Source of the DNA: Prasinococcaceae sp. CCMP 1430
Taxonomy: Eukaryota; Prasinodermophyta; Palmophyllophyceae; Prasinococcales; Prasinococcaceae
Length of the DNA: 26,637 nt
Direction of reading: 5' to 3'
Assembly: GCA_013416795.1 (NCBI GenBank)
Contig: RQSC01000978.1
Coordinates: 7,140-33,776 of the forward strand
The position numbers and the translations under genes are program-made. The notes below the pieces were generated by a model, which saw only the letters and a list, made by a program, of their open reading frames with translations, made no database searches and had not been told where the DNA came from. Shown one piece after another: positions 2 through 18,639 of this stretch (the stretch's first letter is position 1; each line of letters begins with the position of its first letter).

Positions 2-1654
2 GCGGCCGCCGGCCGCGCGGGCGCGCCGCACGCGCAGCTCGTCGAGCTGCTCGGTGACACCGCGCGCTGCGACGCACTCGTTGTGGAGCACAACGGCGTC
101 GTCGCCGACTTCAGCCGGCAGCGCGTGGATGGGCCCGCGCTCGAGGCGCTGGAGGCGTTCTACGAGCGCCGCGGCGTGGCGGGCAGCGCGGCGGCGATGC
201 TCGGCGGCGAGTGCGTCAACGGCACCGAAGGGCGCGCCGCGCTGCACACGGCGCTGCGCGCGGCCGCCGGGGACGCGCCGGTGCGCGCGCTCGGCGAGGG
301 CGAGGAGACAGGGGCGGCGGCGCGCGAGGTCCTCGCGCAGATCGAGGCCTTTGCCGAGCGCGTGCGCTCGGGCGAGCACGTGGGTGCGACCGGCAAGAAG
401 CTCACGGCCGTTGTCGCGATCGGCATCGGCGGCAGCTACCTCGGACCAGCGTTCGTGCACAGCGCGTTGCGCACCGAGCCCGCGGCCGCAGAGGCCGCCG
501 CAGGGCGCGAGCTGCGCTTCCTGGCGAACGTGGACCCGGTGGATGCCGCGCGCGCTCTCGAAGGCCTCGATCCAGAAACCACGCTCGCCATCGTGGTCTC
601 CAAGACCTTCACGACCGCCGAGACCATGCTCAACGCGCGGACGGTGCGCGCGTGGTACGTGTCGGCGCTCGGCGAGGCCGCCGTGCGTTCGCACATGGTG
701 GCCGTGAGCACGAACCTGGAGGCGGTGGCGAGCTTTGGCATCTCGCCTGAGAACGCCTTCGGCTTCTGGAATTGGGTTGGAGGGCGCTTCTCCGCGTGTT
801 CGGCCGTCGGCGCGCTGCCGCTGGCGCTGCACTACGGCATGCGCACCGTGCGGGACTTCCTCGGCGGCGCGCGCGACATGGATCTCCACTTCGCGCAGAC
901 GGCGAACACGCCGCGCCAGTGCCTGCCGGCGATGATGGGCCTGCTGGCGTTTTGGAACCACGCGGTCTGTGGCCTGCCCGCGCGCGCCGTGCTGCCGTAC
1001 GCGCAGGCGCTCGAGAAGTTTCCCGCGCATGTGCAGCAACTCTCCATGGAGAGCCTCGGCAAGGGCGTCACCGCGGCGGGCGGGCCGCTGCTCGCAAAGA
1101 GCGCCACCGGCGAGGTCATCTTCGGCGAGCCCGGCACCAACGGCCAGCACTCGTTCTACCAGCTCATGCACCAAGGGCACGTTGTGCCCGCCGACTTCAT
1201 CGGCGCATGTGAGAGCCAGGCGCCGACTAACCTCGAAGGCGAGGCGGTGTCGAGCCACGATGAGCTCATGAGCAACTTCTTCGCGCAGCCCGACGCGCTG
1301 GCGACGGGCAAAGCCGAGGGTGTGCTGCGCGCCGAGGGCGTGCCGGAGGAACTTGTGCCGCACAAGGTCTTCGAGGGCGGCCGTCCGTCCACGGTGCTCC
1401 TCATGCCGCGCGTAGACGCCTTCACCGTCGGCCAGCTGCTCTCGCTTTACGAGCACCAGACCGCCGTGGAGGGCTTTCTGTTGGGGGTCAACACGTTCGA
1501 CCAGTGGGGGGTGGAGCTGGGCAAGGCTCTCGCCAAGCGCGTGCGCGCGCAGCTGCAGGCCAGCCGCAAGGAGAGCGACGGGCCTGCGCGCGTCGACGGT
1601 TTCAATCACAGCACGACGCGAATGATGGAGCACTACCTGACGCACTCATCGTGA
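2..1654 (+). CDS. GPI: Glucose-6-phosphate isomerase, 5' partial
   Basis: Interconverts glucose-6-phosphate and fructose-6-phosphate in glycolysis, gluconeogenesis and starch or polysaccharide metabolism. The frame is open to the left edge of the window and gives 550 visible residues. Family proteins are about 550-560 residues, so roughly 20 or more N-terminal residues, plus any targeting peptide, lie outside. Visible landmarks are the sugar-phosphate-binding SKTFTT near residue 200, the first PGI signature around GGRFSACSAVG near 260, QQLSMESLGKG near 345, the catalytic-region GEPGTNGQHSFYQL near 376 and the second signature FDQWGVELGK near 500. No intron is needed in the visible part. It ends in TGA and faces the minus-strand BAT2_N gene, with 173 bases between the stop codons. 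Whether it is cytosolic or plastidial cannot be judged without the N-terminus. Family assignment is very secure. Confidence 0.96.
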   Translation, partial: AAAGRAGAPHAQLVELLGDTARCDALVVEHNGVVADFSRQRVDGPALEALEAFYERRGVAGSAAAMLGGECVNGTEGRAALHTALRAAAGDAPVRALGEGEETGAAAREVLAQIEAFAERVRSGEHVGATGKKLTAVVAIGIGGSYLGPAFVHSALRTEPAAAEAAAGRELRFLANVDPVDAARALEGLDPETTLAIVVSKTFTTAETMLNARTVRAWYVSALGEAAVRSHMVAVSTNLEAVASFGISPENAFGFWNWVGGRFSACSAVGALPLALHYGMRTVRDFLGGARDMDLHFAQTANTPRQCLPAMMGLLAFWNHAVCGLPARAVLPYAQALEKFPAHVQQLSMESLGKGVTAAGGPLLAKSATGEVIFGEPGTNGQHSFYQLMHQGHVVPADFIGACESQAPTNLEGEAVSSHDELMSNFFAQPDALATGKAEGVLRAEGVPEELVPHKVFEGGRPSTVLLMPRVDAFTVGQLLSLYEHQTAVEGFLLGVNTFDQWGVELGKALAKRVRAQLQASRKESDGPARVDGFNHSTTRMMEHYLTHSS

Positions 1655-1782
1655 GGCGCGCCACCGGTGTGTCGCTGGGGCTTGGCATCGTGCCCACGAG
1701 CGGGTGCGCGAGCACGCGCGCTGCGCGCAAACGGGGAGAACTTCGCGTGGTAAACAAACAAACCAAACCGCTATGCAGTGCA

Positions 1783-1801
1783 CGCGCGCGCGCGCGCGCG
1801 C
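1783..1801. repeat. (CG)n dinucleotide tract between convergent genes
   Basis: Nineteen bases of perfectly alternating C and G lie in the 173-base spacer between the GPI and BAT2_N stop codons. Such a tract is self-complementary and is a classic Z-DNA-prone sequence. It falls in the presumed 3' untranslated region of both genes. Confidence 0.9.
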
Positions 1802-1827
1802 ACAGCCCCGCGGACCCCTGGCCCACC

Positions 1828-2289
1828 TCACGAGAGAGAGTTGGGGAGGTCGGGCAATTGGCCCTTTGGCGGCTCGCGCGGGATCGACAGCGCCTCCGAC
1901 TTGGGAGCGGCCGCCTCCGAATTGGAGGCAGAGTCGTGTTTTTCGCCCTTGACAGCGGCGTCGCCGCCGCCACCCCTGCCGCCGCCTTTGCCGCCCCGGC
2001 GCCCACCGCGGCCCCGGCGAATCTTCTTCTTGTCCTGCGCAGCTGCGGCATCGCCATTGTTTTCACTGGGCGGGCTCTTTGGCATGTCAGTGCCAGCGCC
2101 ACCCATGGGCATGTCGAGGCCCGGCGGCGCATCGACAGCCTGCGCGGATGCCTTGCCTTCGCCCTGGTCGCCGCCACCACCGCCATTCCCCTTGCCGCGG
2201 CCCTGTCTCTTGCCACGCCGACCTCGGTGGTTCGATCCGCCCTCAGATTTGCCCGCAGCCACCGCACCGCCATTCTGCGGCAGCTCGTC

Positions 2290-2330
<41 letters not shown>

Positions 2331-4353
2331 CCTGCGAGGTAGCGGCAGGCGATGCGCCATCACTGGTGGCGAGCTTGGCCATCTCAACTGTCAGATTTGA
2401 CACCTTCGGGGCCTGCTTCTTGGTGCCACCACTGCCACGGCCCCGCCCACCGCGCGTGCCTCGCTTGGTAGACTTGCCAGAAGCTTCTGGTGTTGCAGAT
2501 TCACTCTTGGGGGCAGCCTCCACATCTGGCGCCGATATCTGCTCCGCATCGTCTGTGCCTGGCTTTGTTTGTTGCGCGTGCTTCTGCTTGTCCTGCTGCT
2601 GCTGCTGCTTCTGTTGCTGCTGCTTGGACTTGCCTTGCTGCTGCTGCTTGGCATTCTGCTGCTGCTTGGCCTGCTGCTGCTTGCCCTGCTGCTGCTTGGC
2701 CTGCTGCTGCTTGGCCTGCTGCTGCTTGGCTTGTTGCTGCTTCCCCTGCTGCTGCTTCGCCTGCTGCTGCTTGCCCTGCTGCTGCTGCTGCTTACCACGC
2801 TGTTGCGGCTTCTCGGGCGCGTCCCCCTTCGCGCCCTCCTTTGCACCAGCCTGCCCTTGGGGGCGCCGCAGGAGCTTGGGTGGGCTCGCCGGCACGGATG
2901 CCTGGGCATGCGGTGGCGGCCCAGGCGGCAATGGCGGCGGCGGTGCGGCGAACGCTGCTGGCGCTGCGCCTTCGCCAGCTCGCATGCCCTGCTGCTCCGC
3001 GGACTTTGGCGGAGGTGTCGGCGGCAGCGGCGGCTGCGCTACGTGCGGGCGCAAGTTGTTGTAGCCGTACCCGCCTCGCATGTTGGGGGGAGGGCCGCCG
3101 TAGCCCCCACCGTACGGCATCGGTGGGGGCGGCATGGTGCCACGGCCGTATGGTATGGCCTGAGGCCCACTGTACGGGTAAGATGGCACCCCCGGATGCA
3201 CCATGCCCCCATAGCCGTGGGCCTGCAATGGCACTCCGCGAGGGGCTCCGTCTCCGTGTGGCGGTGGCACGTCCTGGGGCAGCTGCGGTGGCACTGGTGC
3301 CGGGTTTTCGCTCTGGTGCTGATGAGTTTGCTGAGGAGGGGGCGGCGGAGGCCCGTCGCGAGAGGGCGGAGGCGGCGGCACGTCGCGTGCGGGTGGTGGT
3401 GGTGGTCCGTTGCGCTGAGACAAGCCGCCGCGCGAGGCCGGTGGCTGCGGAGCGTCATTCGCAGGATATCCCCCCGGTCCATTGTTGCTCCCTCGGTCGT
3501 AGCGATGATTGCCTCCACCGTAGCGATCGCCGCCACCTGAGCCGTAGCCCCCGCCGTAGCGGTCACCTCCTCCACCATAGCGACCCTGCCCCCCGCCGAA
3601 CCTCTCGCCACTGCCACCGGGGTAGCGATCGCCGCCCCCGCTGTACCGGTCGCGGTAGCCCCCTCCGCCGCCACCGCCGCCATACCTGTCGTTTCCACCG
3701 CCATAGCGATCACCGTCGCCGCCGTAGCGATGTGGTGGACCGCCGCCTCTGGGATCGCCACCATATCTGTCGTACCCTCCTCCAGGACCGCCGCGCACAT
3801 CGCCGCCGTATCCACCGCCGTCGAAGCGATGATCGCGCTGGTATCCACCGTGCCCACGCTGCCTGCCTCCCTGCTGCTGCGACATCCGAGTGGAGTGTGG
3901 CTGCGGGGCAGCCATTGCCTTGGCCTGTTCCTCCTTGCGCTGCTCCGGCGTGCCCGCGCCGCCCCATGCCAAAGCCGGCGCCGGTGCCGGCGCAGCTGCA
4001 GGTGCTTGTTGGGACCGGCTGTCGGGTCCAGGCTGCCCGCCGCCACCCCACGGCACTGACGTGATCGAGCCCCTGGGGACGATCTCAATGTTGGGATCGA
4101 CGCCGTTGTTCTCACGTCTGAGCAACACGGACGCAAGATCATGCGCGCTGGGTCAGTGCGAGGAGCTGGGATTAGGCCCTAGAGTGTGATGAGCCCCGCG
4201 CGGCCCACGGCGGCAGACACAGACGCTGCGCGGCGGCGTGGCGGCACGGCCTAGCACGCGCCCAACGCACCTCTCGCTCGCGGTGTTCACAGGCTTGGGC
4301 GCGAGCACCTTGCCCAGCGAGACCATTCTCCGGCCAGGCCGCCTGAACGGCAT
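1828..4353 (-). CDS. BAT2/PRRC2 N-terminal domain protein, low-complexity RNA-associated type (two exons)
   Basis: Gene model: exon 1 4353-4271 and exon 2 4117-1828, giving 790 residues. The splice joins SLGKVLAPKPVN (exon 1) to RRENNGVDPNIEIVPRG (exon 2) with no gap relative to the BAT2_N domain of plant MOS1-like proteins and animal PRRC2 proteins (pattern LGKV..PKP.NLPS.R.EN.G.DPN..IVPKG). After residue ~55 the protein is low complexity: a Gly-Tyr-Asp-Arg region (about 115-235) with repeated RYGGG units, a Pro-rich region (about 240-390), a long Lys-Gln-Gln-Gln repeat (about 469-536), a 13-residue polyQ run in a Gln-rich stretch (about 624-637), and RGG-like tracts towards the C-terminus. 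Relatives act in RNA granules, translation or, in plants, chromatin and splicing control. A similar RNA-associated role here is inference. It is divergent from the SAC3 gene. Confidence 0.85.
2291..2329. repeat. (TGC)13 trinucleotide microsatellite
   Basis: Thirteen perfect triplets on the plus strand read as CAG codons on the coding minus strand. They encode a polyglutamine run inside the BAT2_N protein. Uninterrupted triplets of one codon are prone to length polymorphism. Confidence 0.95.
2593..2793. repeat. Coding minisatellite of ~15-base units (KQQQA/KQQQG)
   Basis: About 200 bases built from units close to CTGCTGCTGCTTGSC on the plus strand. On the coding strand they give pentapeptides Lys-Gln-Gln-Gln-(Ala or Gly), with a few longer Gln runs at either end. 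The regular Lys spacing makes this a basic polyQ-like segment. Confidence 0.9.
4118..4270 (-). other. Intron in BAT2_N gene
   Basis: A 153-base GT-AG intron. The donor is GAG AG|GTGCG and the acceptor is a pyrimidine-rich TTGCTCAG|A. Splicing interrupts an Arg codon (AG+A). It is required because exon 2 has no ATG before an upstream in-frame stop at 4153-4155, and the junction rebuilds the conserved BAT2_N motif exactly. Confidence 0.85.
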
Positions 4354-12881: not shown

Positions 12882-14166
12882 TCACACCCTCGTATGGCGC
12901 GCGTGCTTGCGCTTCACGTCGTCGTCCGCGCCTGACGCGAGCAATTTCAGAATAGGCCTCGGCCCGCCGGTGACCACACGCCCCGGGGTGTACATGTCGT
13001 GAATAGAGTGCATGAACGCACACGCGAGGTTGCCGCACGCGCGCTGCGAGTCGACCGCGGTACCCACCAGGTCAACTTCTCGCAACGCGTCCAAGCCGGC
13101 TGCGGGCAATCCAGCGGGATCTCTCTCCGATCCGCGAACGCCGCACAGCGCGCGGACGGCGGCATCGCCAACTCCCCCGCAGCCGCGCAAGGAGAGTACC
13201 TCGAGGCCGCCACAGCCCGCGGCCAGCGCGGCGATGCCTGTGTCGGACACCAGCAATCCGTCCAGGCGCGCGCTGGCAACGTGCCGCGACAAGGCCATTC
13301 GCGCGCGCGCGCGCGCGCATAGGTATGGGTCAGCCAGCGTGACAGCAGGTGTGGTGCGCACATTGGCGCGTGCGCGCGGAGGGCATGCGCACAGGGAGCG
13401 GGGCGCGCCAGTCCGGGCGCTTACCTCGCGAGGACAAGGCAGCGCTCACTCAGCGCCACACACACGCCATCGCCCAGGCGCGCGCACCGCGCGAGTACCA
13501 CTGCGCGTAGCGACGGCAGCGATGCCAGCGCGGCCACCAGACCGCGCGTGGTGAGCCGCGCGTTGTCGGAGAGGTCGAGAGAGGTCAGGCCGACATTCGC
13601 GCAGGCGACGCGTGTCACGTGGTCATCGCTGAGATTGAGGTGCGCCGCCCCGAGCCTGCGCAGCCGCGGCATCGGCGCCTCGGTGAGGTACTTGACGAGC
13701 TTGGAGTGCGTGATGCCCGTGTCGGAGACGTCCAGCGCTTGCAGGCGAGAGCGTAGCGCTCGGCACGCGCGCTTGGCGAACAAATCGCTGACACCGCGGC
13801 ACTGGCGCACAGAGAGCGACGACAGGCAGGGTAGCGCGAGCAGCGCGGGCAGGACCTGTTGCGTCGTGTGCCGCGCGCGCATCAGCAAAGGCCAGTGTGC
13901 GACCAGCCGAAGCGGCCTGCAGCAGAGCGCCGTAGCTGCCGCCCGCGCCGCACCTGTAGCCCAAGCGCGGGCGTATTGTCCAGCAGCACCGAGCTCGTAT
14001 CACGCTTGTCGAGCGCGTTGAGCTTGTCGGCGATCTCCCCTGCGCTCGCGGCCGTGCCCCCCGCGCGCTTCAGCCCGTCGCGCTCAACGGCGCGGTCTGC
14101 CGCGTCTGCCGCCGCGAGCGCTGCGCGCACGACGCCCAGCCGCGCGCACGTGCCCCCCGCCGCCGC
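12882..14166 (-). CDS. Leucine-rich-repeat protein, AMN1-like, 5' partial (three visible exons)
   Basis: Visible exons are 14166-13954, 13855-13425 and 13272-12882, giving 344 residues; the 5' end is in the assembly gap. The first visible exon is Ala-rich and helical, leading to SSVLLDNTPALGLQ. Exons 2 and 3 carry consecutive cysteine-containing type LRRs, with units such as LSSLSVRQCRGVSD, LQALDVSDTGITHS, LTSLDLSDNARLTTRG, LRAVVLARCARLGDG, LLVSDTGIAALAAGCGG and LEVLSLRGCGGVGDAAV. Such repeats occur in F-box/LRR and AMN1 proteins and generally bind protein partners. No F-box is visible, but one could lie in the gap. The C-terminal ~40 residues after MHSIHDMYTPG are not LRR-like. It diverges from the TrmB fusion across the gap. 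Confidence 0.75.
13273..13424 (-). other. Intron 2 of LRR gene, containing a (GC)n tract
   Basis: A 152-base GT-AG intron with donor GCGAG|GTAAGC and acceptor GTTGCCAG|C. It rebuilds a Ser codon (AG+C) and joins two LRR units in register. It contains a ~19-base alternating GC run at 13300-13318, close to the acceptor. Confidence 0.85.
13856..13953 (-). other. Intron 1 (visible) of LRR gene
   Basis: A 98-base GT-AG intron in phase 0. The donor is GGGCTACAG|GTGCGG and the acceptor is GACGCAACAG|GTCCTG. It joins ...ALGLQ to VLPALLALPCL, a standard LRR beginning. Both flanking frames stop or turn non-LRR if it is not removed. Confidence 0.85.
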
Positions 14167-14614
14167 NNNNNNNNNNNNNNNNNNNNNNNNNNNNNNNNNN
14201 NNNNNNNNNNNNNNNNNNNNNNNNNNNNNNNNNNNNNNNNNNNNNNNNNNNNNNNNNNNNNNNNNNNNNNNNNNNNNNNNNNNNNNNNNNNNNNNNNNNN
14301 NNNNNNNNNNNNNNNNNNNNNNNNNNNNNNNNNNNNNNNNNNNNNNNNNNNNNNNNNNNNNNNNNNNNNNNNNNNNNNNNNNNNNNNNNNNNNNNNNNNN
14401 NNNNNNNNNNNNNNNNNNNNNNNNNNNNNNNNNNNNNNNNNNNNNNNNNNNNNNNNNNNNNNNNNNNNNNNNNNNNNNNNNNNNNNNNNNNNNNNNNNNN
14501 NNNNNNNNNNNNNNNNNNNNNNNNNNNNNNNNNNNNNNNNNNNNNNNNNNNNNNNNNNNNNNNNNNNNNNNNNNNNNNNNNNNNNNNNNNNNNNNNNNNN
14601 NNNNNNNNNNNNNN
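14167..14614. other. Assembly gap of 448 N
   Basis: The sequence is unknown here. The LRR gene on the minus strand and the methyltransferase gene on the plus strand are both open into the gap. Their N-termini and any shared divergent promoter must lie in it. The N count may be only an estimate of the true distance. Confidence 0.99.
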
Positions 14615-14615
14615 C

Positions 14616-16475
14616 GCGTCAGCGTCGCCTGCCGAGGCCGCCGCGGTGGTGGACGCGCTCGCGACCGCGGCCGCGCCGCGGCTGGTCGCGCTCGAAGACA
14701 CGGAGCTTGCGGCAGCGGCGGCGCAGCTCGCGGGAAGCAATGCCCGCAGCGTCGCAGCGGCAGAGGTGGTCGGGCGCGAGCTTGAGACGCGCGCGCAGCG
14801 GCTCGCGGCAGGGCCGCTGGCGGACCTCGCCTGCGCTGCTGCGGCGCTCAGCACGCGCTCCGGACGCGACGCGCGCAGTGCACTGGCCGCCGCAGCCGAT
14901 GCGGCGCCTGCGGCGCTCGCGCGTGCTACAGATGCGCACGCCGCCGCGAATTTGGCCCTGAGACTCGCAGAGGCGGGAGCACTCGACGCGCGCGCGCTCG
15001 AGGGGGCGTACAGAGTGGCGACGGGGGCGCTGAGCGCGGCGACGCTCGCCGAGCTCCCGGGTCTGTCTGCGCGGCTGGCGCGCGCCGCCGCCGCAGTATG
15101 TGGCGGCGAGCGCGCGCATAACACCTCGGCTGTCGCTCTCGCTTTCGATCGAGCGCTCGCGAACGAAGTTGAGGCGCGGTCGGGCGGGGCGGAGCTGGAC
15201 GAGCTGCTCGCGTTCGCCTCACGCGCACAGGCGGCCGGCGCGCAGGGCGACCCGCTCGTCGCCGCCGCGGGCCGCGGCTGCAGTGCTGGCGTAGGTGGCG
15301 GAGGCGCGCTCCCGGGTGCCGATGCAAAGTCCGCCAAGCAGCTCGCACGTGCGGCCAGGGATCTGCGCGCGGCCGGCTTCCCCGCGGCGATGCTTCGGCC
15401 TCTGGCGGCGACGGCCATGGCGAAAGTGCCCGATATCGACAACTTCACGCAGGCGGGTGAGGCAGCGTTCCAGTTTGCGGCGGCGGGTGTTGGAGACTTC
15501 GCGCTGTTCGCCGCGCTCCAGGAGGCCGCTGCGGCGGCGATGGAAACGGCGCCGCGGCGAGCCTTGCGACCGAAGACTGTGGCACACTGCGCCTCGCTCA
15601 TGGCGGCTGCCGGCTGCGCACCCAACGCGCGCTATCAGGAAGCGCTGCTCGACGCCGCGCGGTCCGCGCTCGCGCGGGGTGGGGCCTCTGCCAGCGACGC
15701 CGAGGTGCTCGCGGCTGTCGTCGATGGAGAGGGCCGCTTAAGCGCGTTCCATCCCTCTGCGCTCGTTCTACTGTGGCGATGGCAGAAGCTGCTGCCCAAG
15801 CCAGACACGGCGGAGGCGAGCGCGCCGCGGGCAGCAGCCGCTGTCGACTTCGCGGACTCGTCCCTGCCGCTCTGCGTCGATCTCGGATGTGGCCTGGGGT
15901 CGTTCGTTCTGGGCGGCGCCGCGGCTGACGATGACGGCGCCCGCAACTGGCTAGGCATTGACGCGAGCGCGGTTGCCATCGACCGCGCGCGCGGCGCGGC
16001 GGCGCGCATGGGCCTCGCGCCGCGTGCTCGATTCGCGGTGGGCGACGCCGCCGACACGCTCGCCGCCGTGGCGTCCGACTATCCGGGCGAGGTGTCGCTG
16101 TGCTGCATTCACTTTCCGACACCCTTTCGCACCGCGGAGGACAATCGCGGCGGCGAGGCCTCACTCGACACGCAGGTGCACGGTGGCGGAGCGTTCATGG
16201 TCCAGCCCGCGCTCGCAGAGGAAGTCGTAGCGGCGCTGGCGCCTGGCGGCGGTGTGGCGCTCAAGAGCAACTCGCGGGACGTCCTCGAGGCCATGCGCGA
16301 CGAGGTCCTCGCCGCCGCCACACGTCGAGGCGAGCGCCTCGTGTCCGAGAGCTGGCCCGCGGTGCCCCCCCTCGCTGGCGATCGCCTCGCCGAGACCGAC
16401 GCTGCGAGCGCCGCCGCTGGTCGCGACGTGCACCGCGCCTACCTCGCCAAAGCGTCGCGGCTGGGGCTGCATTAG
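14616..16475 (+). CDS. Helical-repeat protein fused to TrmB-like tRNA (guanine-N7) methyltransferase, 5' partial
   Basis: The frame is open from the gap and gives 619 visible residues. The first ~400 are Ala-rich helical units of roughly 35-40 residues (for example AAFQFAAAGVGDFALFAALQ and HCASLMAAAGCAPNARYQEA), resembling alpha-solenoid repeats of organellar RNA-binding proteins. From about 420 comes a Rossmann methyltransferase: SAM-binding VDLGCGLGSF, acidic strand NWLGIDASAVAIDRAR, then DYPGEVSLCCIHFPTPFR. That last block matches the plant chloroplast TrmB type (SYPGDL....I..PNP) and replaces the bacterial FPDPW. A C-terminal LKSNSRDVLEAMRDEV...HRAYLAKASR also fits. TrmB enzymes methylate G46 of tRNA; organellar location is inferred. 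FPTP in place of FPDP and absence of the basic KKRHHKRR element make the substrate uncertain. Ends in TAG. Confidence 0.7.
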   Translation, partial: ASASPAEAAAVVDALATAAAPRLVALEDTELAAAAAQLAGSNARSVAAAEVVGRELETRAQRLAAGPLADLACAAAALSTRSGRDARSALAAAADAAPAALARATDAHAAANLALRLAEAGALDARALEGAYRVATGALSAATLAELPGLSARLARAAAAVCGGERAHNTSAVALAFDRALANEVEARSGGAELDELLAFASRAQAAGAQGDPLVAAAGRGCSAGVGGGGALPGADAKSAKQLARAARDLRAAGFPAAMLRPLAATAMAKVPDIDNFTQAGEAAFQFAAAGVGDFALFAALQEAAAAAMETAPRRALRPKTVAHCASLMAAAGCAPNARYQEALLDAARSALARGGASASDAEVLAAVVDGEGRLSAFHPSALVLLWRWQKLLPKPDTAEASAPRAAAAVDFADSSLPLCVDLGCGLGSFVLGGAAADDDGARNWLGIDASAVAIDRARGAAARMGLAPRARFAVGDAADTLAAVASDYPGEVSLCCIHFPTPFRTAEDNRGGEASLDTQVHGGGAFMVQPALAEEVVAALAPGGGVALKSNSRDVLEAMRDEVLAAATRRGERLVSESWPAVPPLAGDRLAETDAASAAAGRDVHRAYLAKASRLGLH

Positions 16476-17175: not shown

Positions 17176-18639
17176 ATGGGCTCAGGCGGAGACAGCTTAC
17201 GGGAAGCCGGGTCATCTGACCGCGTGTTCGCGCTCCCGGGCGCTCTGTGGGCCGTCCTGCGCAATGGCGTGCGTGGCGGCGCCTTGCGCGAGCACGACGT
17301 GCTGGCTCACAAGGCCAAGGGCCAAGACGGCGCACCGCCCGCGCTGAAGCGCGCAGTGTCCACGGTGGTATCGGTGAATTTGGCGGAGGGCCAAGAGAGC
17401 GACGAACGCGCAGCGGATCTGACCAGGCGCCTCTCTCGTGCGCTGAGTCGCGCGCCTTCGGTCGCCCCGGAAGTCCCACGCCTGATGGCAGACGTGACAG
17501 CCGCCTTCATCGAGGGCGCGCTGCGTGAGAGCGGGGCGCTGCCGGTGGGTGTGTCCGTCAAGGAGATCGACATACAGCCCATGGCCCTCAACGGTTTCCT
17601 TTCGGACGTCGGCCGCGCGTACATCACCTACGAGTGCAGCGAAGACTGCGACGCCGGTGAGACGCGGACGCCTCCCAGCGTCATCGTCAAGCTGTGCACG
17701 GCGTCCGAGGAGGTGCTCGAGGCCGCCAAGGCCAACAGTCTGTATCGCATGGAGGCGGAGTTCTTCCTCAAGTTTGCAGAGACCTGTGCTGTTGGAGCAC
17801 CGCACTGCTTCTGCGCGCTGGAGGATGATAGAGGAGGGCACGGTGCTCTGGTTTTGGAGGACCTCGAGTTGCGCCCCACGCTGTATTGTGTCTCGCAGGT
17901 GAAGGGCATCGGCCGCCGCGAGGCCGTGTGCATGGCCGAGGCCATGGGGGCATTGCATGCCCAGCACTGGAGCCCAGAGGGCCGCGCTGGGATGCCCGAG
18001 TGGCTGAGCCATGTGTGCGACATCAGCATCCGCGATCCGGACAACAAGAAGTGCGCGCCGATCTACCTCCAAAGCAAGTTTGTCGACCCTGCCAGCTGCG
18101 AGGCGCGCGGCGTGGGAGGCGAGACGCTCGCCGCCGCCCGCCGCGTGATGGAGCGCGGCGCCGAGCTCAAGGCCGCGCTGTCGGGGCCCGGCCCGTGCAC
18201 GTTGCTGCACAACGACGCCCGCTGCGACAACGTGTTTTGGGGCGATGAAGGAGGCGTGCCAGGCGGCGTCGTGTTCCTGGACTGGCAGCTCTTGGGGTGT
18301 GGGCCCGGCCCCATCGACCTCGCGTGGGCGACGACCAACTCCATCACGGATGCGCCGCCCAGCGAGGCGCGCGACAGGGTCTATGTGATCAAGTACTGGG
18401 AGAGCTTGACGTCGCGTGGTGTGGACAAGAGGAGCTATCCCTTCGAGGCCTGCTGGCGGGACTACCTCCTCGGAGTCGCATGGTCCTATGCGTTCCTGAC
18501 GCACCTCGCCGCCCTTGGCAACGCCGAGGAGATGCTCGAGAATGAGCTCTGCCGCAAAATTCATGACCGCTGCATGACAGCCGTCGCTGCGCTCGGCGTC
18601 CACGAAATTGCCTACGAGCGCATCGTCGGATCGACGTAG
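17176..18639 (+). CDS. Ecdysteroid-kinase-like (CHK/EcKinase) small-molecule phosphotransferase
   Basis: A 487-residue protein from the ATG at 17176 (ATCATGG context). It has the fold signature of the aminoglycoside-phosphotransferase/choline-kinase superfamily: VIVKL with the ATP-binding Lys near residue 172, ALVLEDL as the hinge segment, catalytic loop LLHNDARCDNVFW with HND..CDN near 345, and the metal-binding VVFLDWQLLGCGPGPIDLAW near 369. The DWQ...GP..DLAW wording is typical of the EcKinase/CHK group, known from insects, nematodes, fungi and many protists. It probably phosphorylates a small alcohol or sterol-like substrate, but the substrate cannot be predicted. The N-terminal ~110 residues are poorly conserved-looking. 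All catalytic residues are present. It converges on the sulfotransferase gene, 150 bases apart. Confidence 0.85.
   Translation: MGSGGDSLREAGSSDRVFALPGALWAVLRNGVRGGALREHDVLAHKAKGQDGAPPALKRAVSTVVSVNLAEGQESDERAADLTRRLSRALSRAPSVAPEVPRLMADVTAAFIEGALRESGALPVGVSVKEIDIQPMALNGFLSDVGRAYITYECSEDCDAGETRTPPSVIVKLCTASEEVLEAAKANSLYRMEAEFFLKFAETCAVGAPHCFCALEDDRGGHGALVLEDLELRPTLYCVSQVKGIGRREAVCMAEAMGALHAQHWSPEGRAGMPEWLSHVCDISIRDPDNKKCAPIYLQSKFVDPASCEARGVGGETLAAARRVMERGAELKAALSGPGPCTLLHNDARCDNVFWGDEGGVPGGVVFLDWQLLGCGPGPIDLAWATTNSITDAPPSEARDRVYVIKYWESLTSRGVDKRSYPFEACWRDYLLGVAWSYAFLTHLAALGNAEEMLENELCRKIHDRCMTAVAALGVHEIAYERIVGST

Follow-up and report, generated by a model that had tools for sequence, protein, structure and literature searches.

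An open frame in a contig of the alga Prasinococcaceae sp. CCMP 1430 raises the question of whether a TrmB-type methyltransferase has been fused behind a helical-repeat domain and, if so, whether the fused copy still makes m7G46 in tRNA. The window, meaning the whole stretch of 26,637 nucleotides that was analyzed, belongs to a G+C-rich eukaryotic genome of 24.5 Mb. The first base of the frame lies one base past an assembly gap, so that the N-terminus of the fusion protein is absent (Table 1). A gene with weak LRR_6 and LRR_4 matches (12882–14166, minus strand; apparent intron near 13290–13430) enters the same gap from the left and also lacks its start, indicating that the starts of both divergent genes lie inside the gap. 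With a correctly sized gap, the full-length fusion protein would have at most about 770 residues. On the plus strand, the window also carries an ecdysteroid-kinase-like gene of the APH fold (17176–18639; PF02958, 34.4 bits), here in an alga.

Table 1. Features of the fusion gene and of the adjoining gap (positions in the window; residues counted from the first visible codon).
Feature	Residues	Position	Strand	Basis or comment
Assembly gap, 448 N		14167–14614		Hides starts of fusion gene and divergent LRR gene
Fusion gene, visible part, 619 codons and TAG		14616–16475	+	Open frame, coding composition
Ala-rich helical-hairpin solenoid	1–398	14616–15809	+	Helix-breaker period, AF2 helices; no Pfam or PDB sequence match
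Hairpin repeat	68–103	14817–14924	+	Self-built repeat profile, 21.0 bits (repeat itself in profile)
Hairpin repeat	106–141	14931–15038	+	Self-built repeat profile, 27.7 bits
Hairpin repeat	193–227	15192–15296	+	Self-built repeat profile, 30.6 bits
Hairpin repeat	239–274	15330–15437	+	Self-built repeat profile, 36.6 bits
Hairpin repeat	276–311	15441–15548	+	Self-built repeat profile, 35.7 bits
Hairpin repeat	318–353	15567–15674	+	Self-built repeat profile, 37.9 bits
TrmB-type Rossmann methyltransferase domain	411–612	15846–16451	+	Profiles, AF2 model, fold matches
SAM-binding motif I, DLGCGLG, kept	422–428	15879–15899	+	Alignment
FPTP replacing FPDP (E. coli D144 to T502)	500–503	16113–16124	+	Alignment
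FRTAEDNRGGEASLDTQVHGGGAFMVQ, replacing the basic tRNA-binding block; insert of about 15 residues	504–530	16125–16205	+	Alignment
N552 where E. coli has D180	552	16269–16271	+	Alignment
AETD replacing cyanobacterial TERE (T217 to A592, E220 to D595)	592–595	16389–16400	+	Alignment

The G+C contents of the three codon positions in the fusion frame are 0.81 (GC1), 0.61 (GC2), and 0.80 (GC3), with GC2 lowest in every block, and an open frame of 1857 nt was found in 0–0.2% of draws of second-order Markov sequences. Methionine is present at positions 259, 268, 309, 329, and then 465. Since there is none between 329 and 465, the TrmB domain has no start of its own just upstream of motif I, and a stand-alone methyltransferase beginning upstream of this motif would need a start within the last repeats. 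A solenoid–TrmB fusion in one frame, as proposed in the initial annotation, is thus the simplest reading of the locus. The gap adjoining the gene and the long branch of the TrmB domain in the tree (see below) could point to a decaying pseudogene or an assembly artefact, to which we give a small chance, given 619 codons free of stops and frameshifts, coding composition along the whole frame, and a confident model of the Rossmann domain.

On profile and model evidence, the C-terminal domain is a member of the TrmB/Methyltransf_4 superfamily. It matched PF02390 with 24.6 bits (cut-off 24) and, over residues 412–612, TIGR00091 with 35–39 bits (equivalog cut-off 112.65). A single-sequence AF2 model of the 619 residues had a mean pLDDT of 43.5 and was unusable for this domain. 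A second AF2 model, for which the alignment contained 39 rows of bacterial TrmBs, gave a pLDDT of 90–96 over most of the domain, with lower values at the insert. The best 23 PDB fold matches were all TrmB, METTL1, or Trm8 (Z 16.0–18.2), followed by other methyltransferases at 15.2; this agreement is partly built in, since the alignment behind the model consisted of TrmBs.

The nearest paralogue in the same genome is the stand-alone plastid-type TrmB (L002/L009; 31% over 194 residues), itself closest to cyanobacterial enzymes (up to 48% identity). A tree of 46 rows located the window domain inside the cyanobacterial clade, next to a TrmB-TRM1 copy, two long branches being joined. In the tree without that copy, it was sister to its own plastid TrmB (97/72) within a cyanobacterial clade (87/95), on a long branch. 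A tree placing it outside the cyanobacterial group was not rejected (AU p 0.375). Owing to the long branch and to this last result, the chloroplast-type origin that had been assigned to the domain receives moderate support and is not proven. The plastid and cyanobacterial enzymes (L002/L009 and, for the cyanobacteria, loci L022 onward) have the SxYPG...C..FP.P and GxxVxR stretches in common with the window domain. They are stand-alone proteins, whereas the copy in the window follows a solenoid within a single protein and lacks the N-terminal RQHxNPL block, FPDP, RHHKRR, D180, and TERE. No relatives were found in the viral contigs searched.

Alanine substitutions in E. coli TrmB abolish multiple-turnover methylation at D144, R154, or R155 and leave less than 10% activity at R26, H151, D180, T217, or E220; D144 and D180 are linked to methyl transfer and guanine positioning (PMC10130221). 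The window domain keeps none of D144, H151, R155, D180, T217, and E220, and the alignment of R154 is uncertain because of the insert near the basic block. The replacement of FPDP by FPTP and the absence of the basic tRNA-binding stretch had been noticed earlier, and both observations stand: RTAEDNRG, followed by the insert, occupies the place of KRRHHKRR in the plastid enzyme. As judged from the alignment, the decay exceeds that description, D180 and T217 also being gone. Other changes affect a tryptophan (F504), a lysine (T506), and the H and K/R positions of the basic block. Inspection by eye revealed neither a GT donor between FPTP and the insert nor a hidden frameshift, intron, or other frame restoring FPDP.

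Eight of the 22 columns conserved at 85% or more in 39 bacterial TrmBs are kept in the window domain (P418, G424, G428, A435, G447, F500, P501, and P503, all on the SAM side or structural), compared to 17–22 in the bacterial proteins; D449 is likewise kept. The bacterial loci were retrieved by FPDP and RHHKRR patterns, with hand-written motif rows in the query alignment as a search aid only; this choice inflates the conservation of the corresponding columns, of which D180, T217, and E220 are independent. In a second alignment, the numbers of conserved columns kept, out of 32, were 26 for the plastid copy (its last exon joined by eye for this count), 17 for METTL1, 15 for TrmB-TRM1, 13 for PPR-CCCH-TGM, and 12 for the window domain. 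The latter is the sole one among the five TrmB-like genes to have lost both D144 and D180.

Since none of the catalytic residues that could be placed is kept and the basic block following FPDP is replaced, tRNA m7G46 methyltransferase activity is unlikely. As previously proposed from the altered FPDP block and the missing basic stretch, the target may be something other than tRNA G46. A protein that is still a canonical m7G46 enzyme is hardly credible: PF02390 is just over its cut-off, but TIGR00091 reaches 39 bits at most and every placeable residue whose loss kills E. coli TrmB is changed, R154 being the only uncertain one. In this genome, m7G46 is covered by the canonical stand-alone METTL1-type and plastid-type copies, which are both retained.

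The FPDP and basic block is kept in both stand-alone copies and lost in all three fused ones, namely those joined to PPR-CCCH, TRM1, and the solenoid (L001, L002, L003, L004, and the window gene). In L004 (G000:C38:87164-90334, frame 640–3027), a TrmB-like domain (PF02390, 46.7 bits; motif FPSPLNPRRRE) is in frame with a TRM1-type m2,2G26 tRNA dimethyltransferase (PF02005, 78 bits). L010 (G000:C82:510500-516500, exons 1475–2497 and 2778–3992) combines PPR_2, zf-CCCH, and Methyltransf_4, with PPR_2 and PPR_3 at 41 and 33 bits and a degenerate FPEPP motif. Proteins combining a PPR solenoid with a TrmB/TGM domain, designated PPR-TGM, have been reported in algae and protists, the PPR-CCCH-TGM subtype being found in prasinophyte algae and the TGM domain being described as chlamydial in affinity (Manna and Barth, 2013; PMC4029402). 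L010 is a member of this subtype, and its presence points to a green alga of probable prasinophyte affinity. The premise that TrmB enzymes normally stand alone leaves out the published family and the two further fused genes of this genome, and the novelty of the window gene is lower than first implied since PPR-TGM fusions were published in 2013.

The window gene resembles PPR-TGM proteins in outline, with an N-terminal alpha-solenoid (about 300–500 residues in that family) ahead of a C-terminal TrmB/TGM domain; from its sequence, we do not place it as a member. PPR-TGM proteins have three to seven PPR motifs in hairpins of 35 residues, whereas the window solenoid has no Pfam match at E ≤ 10 and hairpins of about 41 residues. 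The CCCH finger of the PPR-CCCH-TGM subtype is absent from the window gene, which also lacks D180, unlike PPR-TGM. Finally, the PPR-TGM domain groups with other bacteria, whereas the window domain is of the plastid/cyanobacterial type in a tree comprising no chlamydial TrmB. Our literature search returned no OPR- or HPR-TrmB fusion. Thus, the repeat–TrmB fusion is itself known; a non-PPR solenoid, a plastid-type TrmB, and the loss of catalytic residues are new here.

The Ala-rich helical repeats described ahead of the TrmB domain were recovered over about 400 residues with 33% alanine. The spacing of the helix breakers G, P, and N has a period of 20.8 residues, matched by 2 of 2000 shuffles; this spacing alone was significant, substitution-score autocorrelation being not significant. 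The AF2 model has about 19 helices across residues 1–392, with a helix start every 20.8 residues on average and a median hairpin spacing of 41; its confidence over the solenoid is low, too weak to name a repeat class. Six repeat units were aligned by eye around an 'Axx(hydrophobic)xAAG' turn (Table 1).

OPR, HPR, and FASTK-like repeats are RNA-binding helical repeats of 37–38 residues. By eye, organellar RAP, OPR, HPR, and FASTK proteins also show helix-hairpin units, a pattern like 'AxxLAxAGxxxxxL', and a similar length range, whereas the fusion has no RAP domain (PF08373) and no profile match. Residues 1–398 matched no Pfam model, PPR, TPR, RAP, and FAST included, at E up to 10. The same library clearly detects PPRs, CCCH, and RAP domains elsewhere in this genome, making PPR and RAP unlikely for the solenoid. 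The solenoid sequence and the self-built profile retrieved nothing useful from PDB sequences, and the profile gave no signal against RAP, PPR, and control proteins of the same genome. Two matches were rejected: the only genome match of the solenoid, to an organellar-type DNA polymerase A, was judged to be due to chance (E 0.17), and that of residues 314–400 to L009 was spurious, the alignment having run on into sequence ahead of the plastid TrmB in a gene that shows no solenoid. The genome has three RAP genes elsewhere. In L018 (G000:C133:63000-66500, minus strand, 464–1945), one frame encodes the predicted C-terminal fold of a 5'-3' exonuclease (PF01367; 39.2 bits against a cut-off of 40) together with a RAP domain at the C-terminus (24.0 bits against 24.2).

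Assignment of the solenoid to an organellar RNA-binding repeat class was not borne out, as there is no Pfam match, the charge is neutral (net −2, pI 6.2), and the model is too weak. The neutral solenoid and the acidic methyltransferase domain (pI 4.9) do not favor RNA binding; charge is undecisive on this point since the repeats of the RAP protein L017 of the same genome are acidic too. The solenoid might be a HEAT/ARM-like protein-binding scaffold, the whole protein then being unrelated to RNA. Its neutral charge would suit this reading, as would the hairpin spacing of about 41, which fits HEAT/ARM as well as OPR/HPR, and the fold matches of the weak single-sequence model to generic designed repeats, retromer, and importins. 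We consider it improbable: the partner domain derives from an RNA methyltransferase, and trypanosome RNA-editing (RESC) and Toxoplasma mitoribosomal proteins are also among the matches, all at the noise level for helical repeats (Z 8.4–9.6). Among the fold matches listed for the second model, all places were filled by the methyltransferase domain.

The best explanation, for which we see the case as evenly balanced, is that the fusion carries a repurposed, probably non-catalytic SAM-fold module, borne by the solenoid and serving organellar RNA or RNP metabolism. A plastid-type TrmB would have been duplicated, would have diverged strongly, and would have been fused behind about ten hairpin repeats of about 41 residues. 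The fusion would no longer make m7G46, a capacity that would remain with the stand-alone plastid paralogue. Recognition would fall to the solenoid, which would bind an RNA or an RNP partner, probably in the plastid. The TrmB fold could in principle still hold SAM and would act as a structural, RNA-contacting, or SAM-responsive module, by analogy with further inactive methyltransferase folds that have been co-opted for RNA metabolism in organelles. Against the absence of catalysis, the SAM-binding residues are kept, which would be unnecessary for a purely structural relic.

This retention of DLGCGLG, G447, D449, and the FP-P frame fits an active methyltransferase that has acquired a new target, the solenoid bringing the SAM-binding domain, with a rebuilt pocket, to one organellar RNA. 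The confident modeling of most of the domain is in line with this possibility, and a transfer of recognition to the solenoid would be compatible with the missing generic tRNA-binding block. We regard it as rather unlikely, since both D144 and D180 have been exchanged and nothing evidently takes their place. The earlier suggestion that the repeats direct the methyltransferase to an RNA is doubtful for this reason, activity being the less likely reading. A specific version, in which a plastid TrmB copy devoid of its own tRNA grip would methylate a non-G46 organellar site on an RNA chosen by the solenoid, is a long shot; one such site would be m7G36 in the chloroplast tRNA-Leu(UAG) anticodon, an orphan modification for which published listings name no enzyme (PMC6320965, PMC4033218).

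Provided that the protein exists as predicted, the window gene would add another solenoid–TrmB fusion, one that differs from PPR-TGM in the kind of repeat and in where its enzyme domain apparently came from. It would also be a weak candidate for organellar m7G sites that have no assigned enzyme. The preservation of the catalytic block in both stand-alone copies and its loss in the three fused ones suggest that TrmB has repeatedly been taken from catalysis to other uses once fused.
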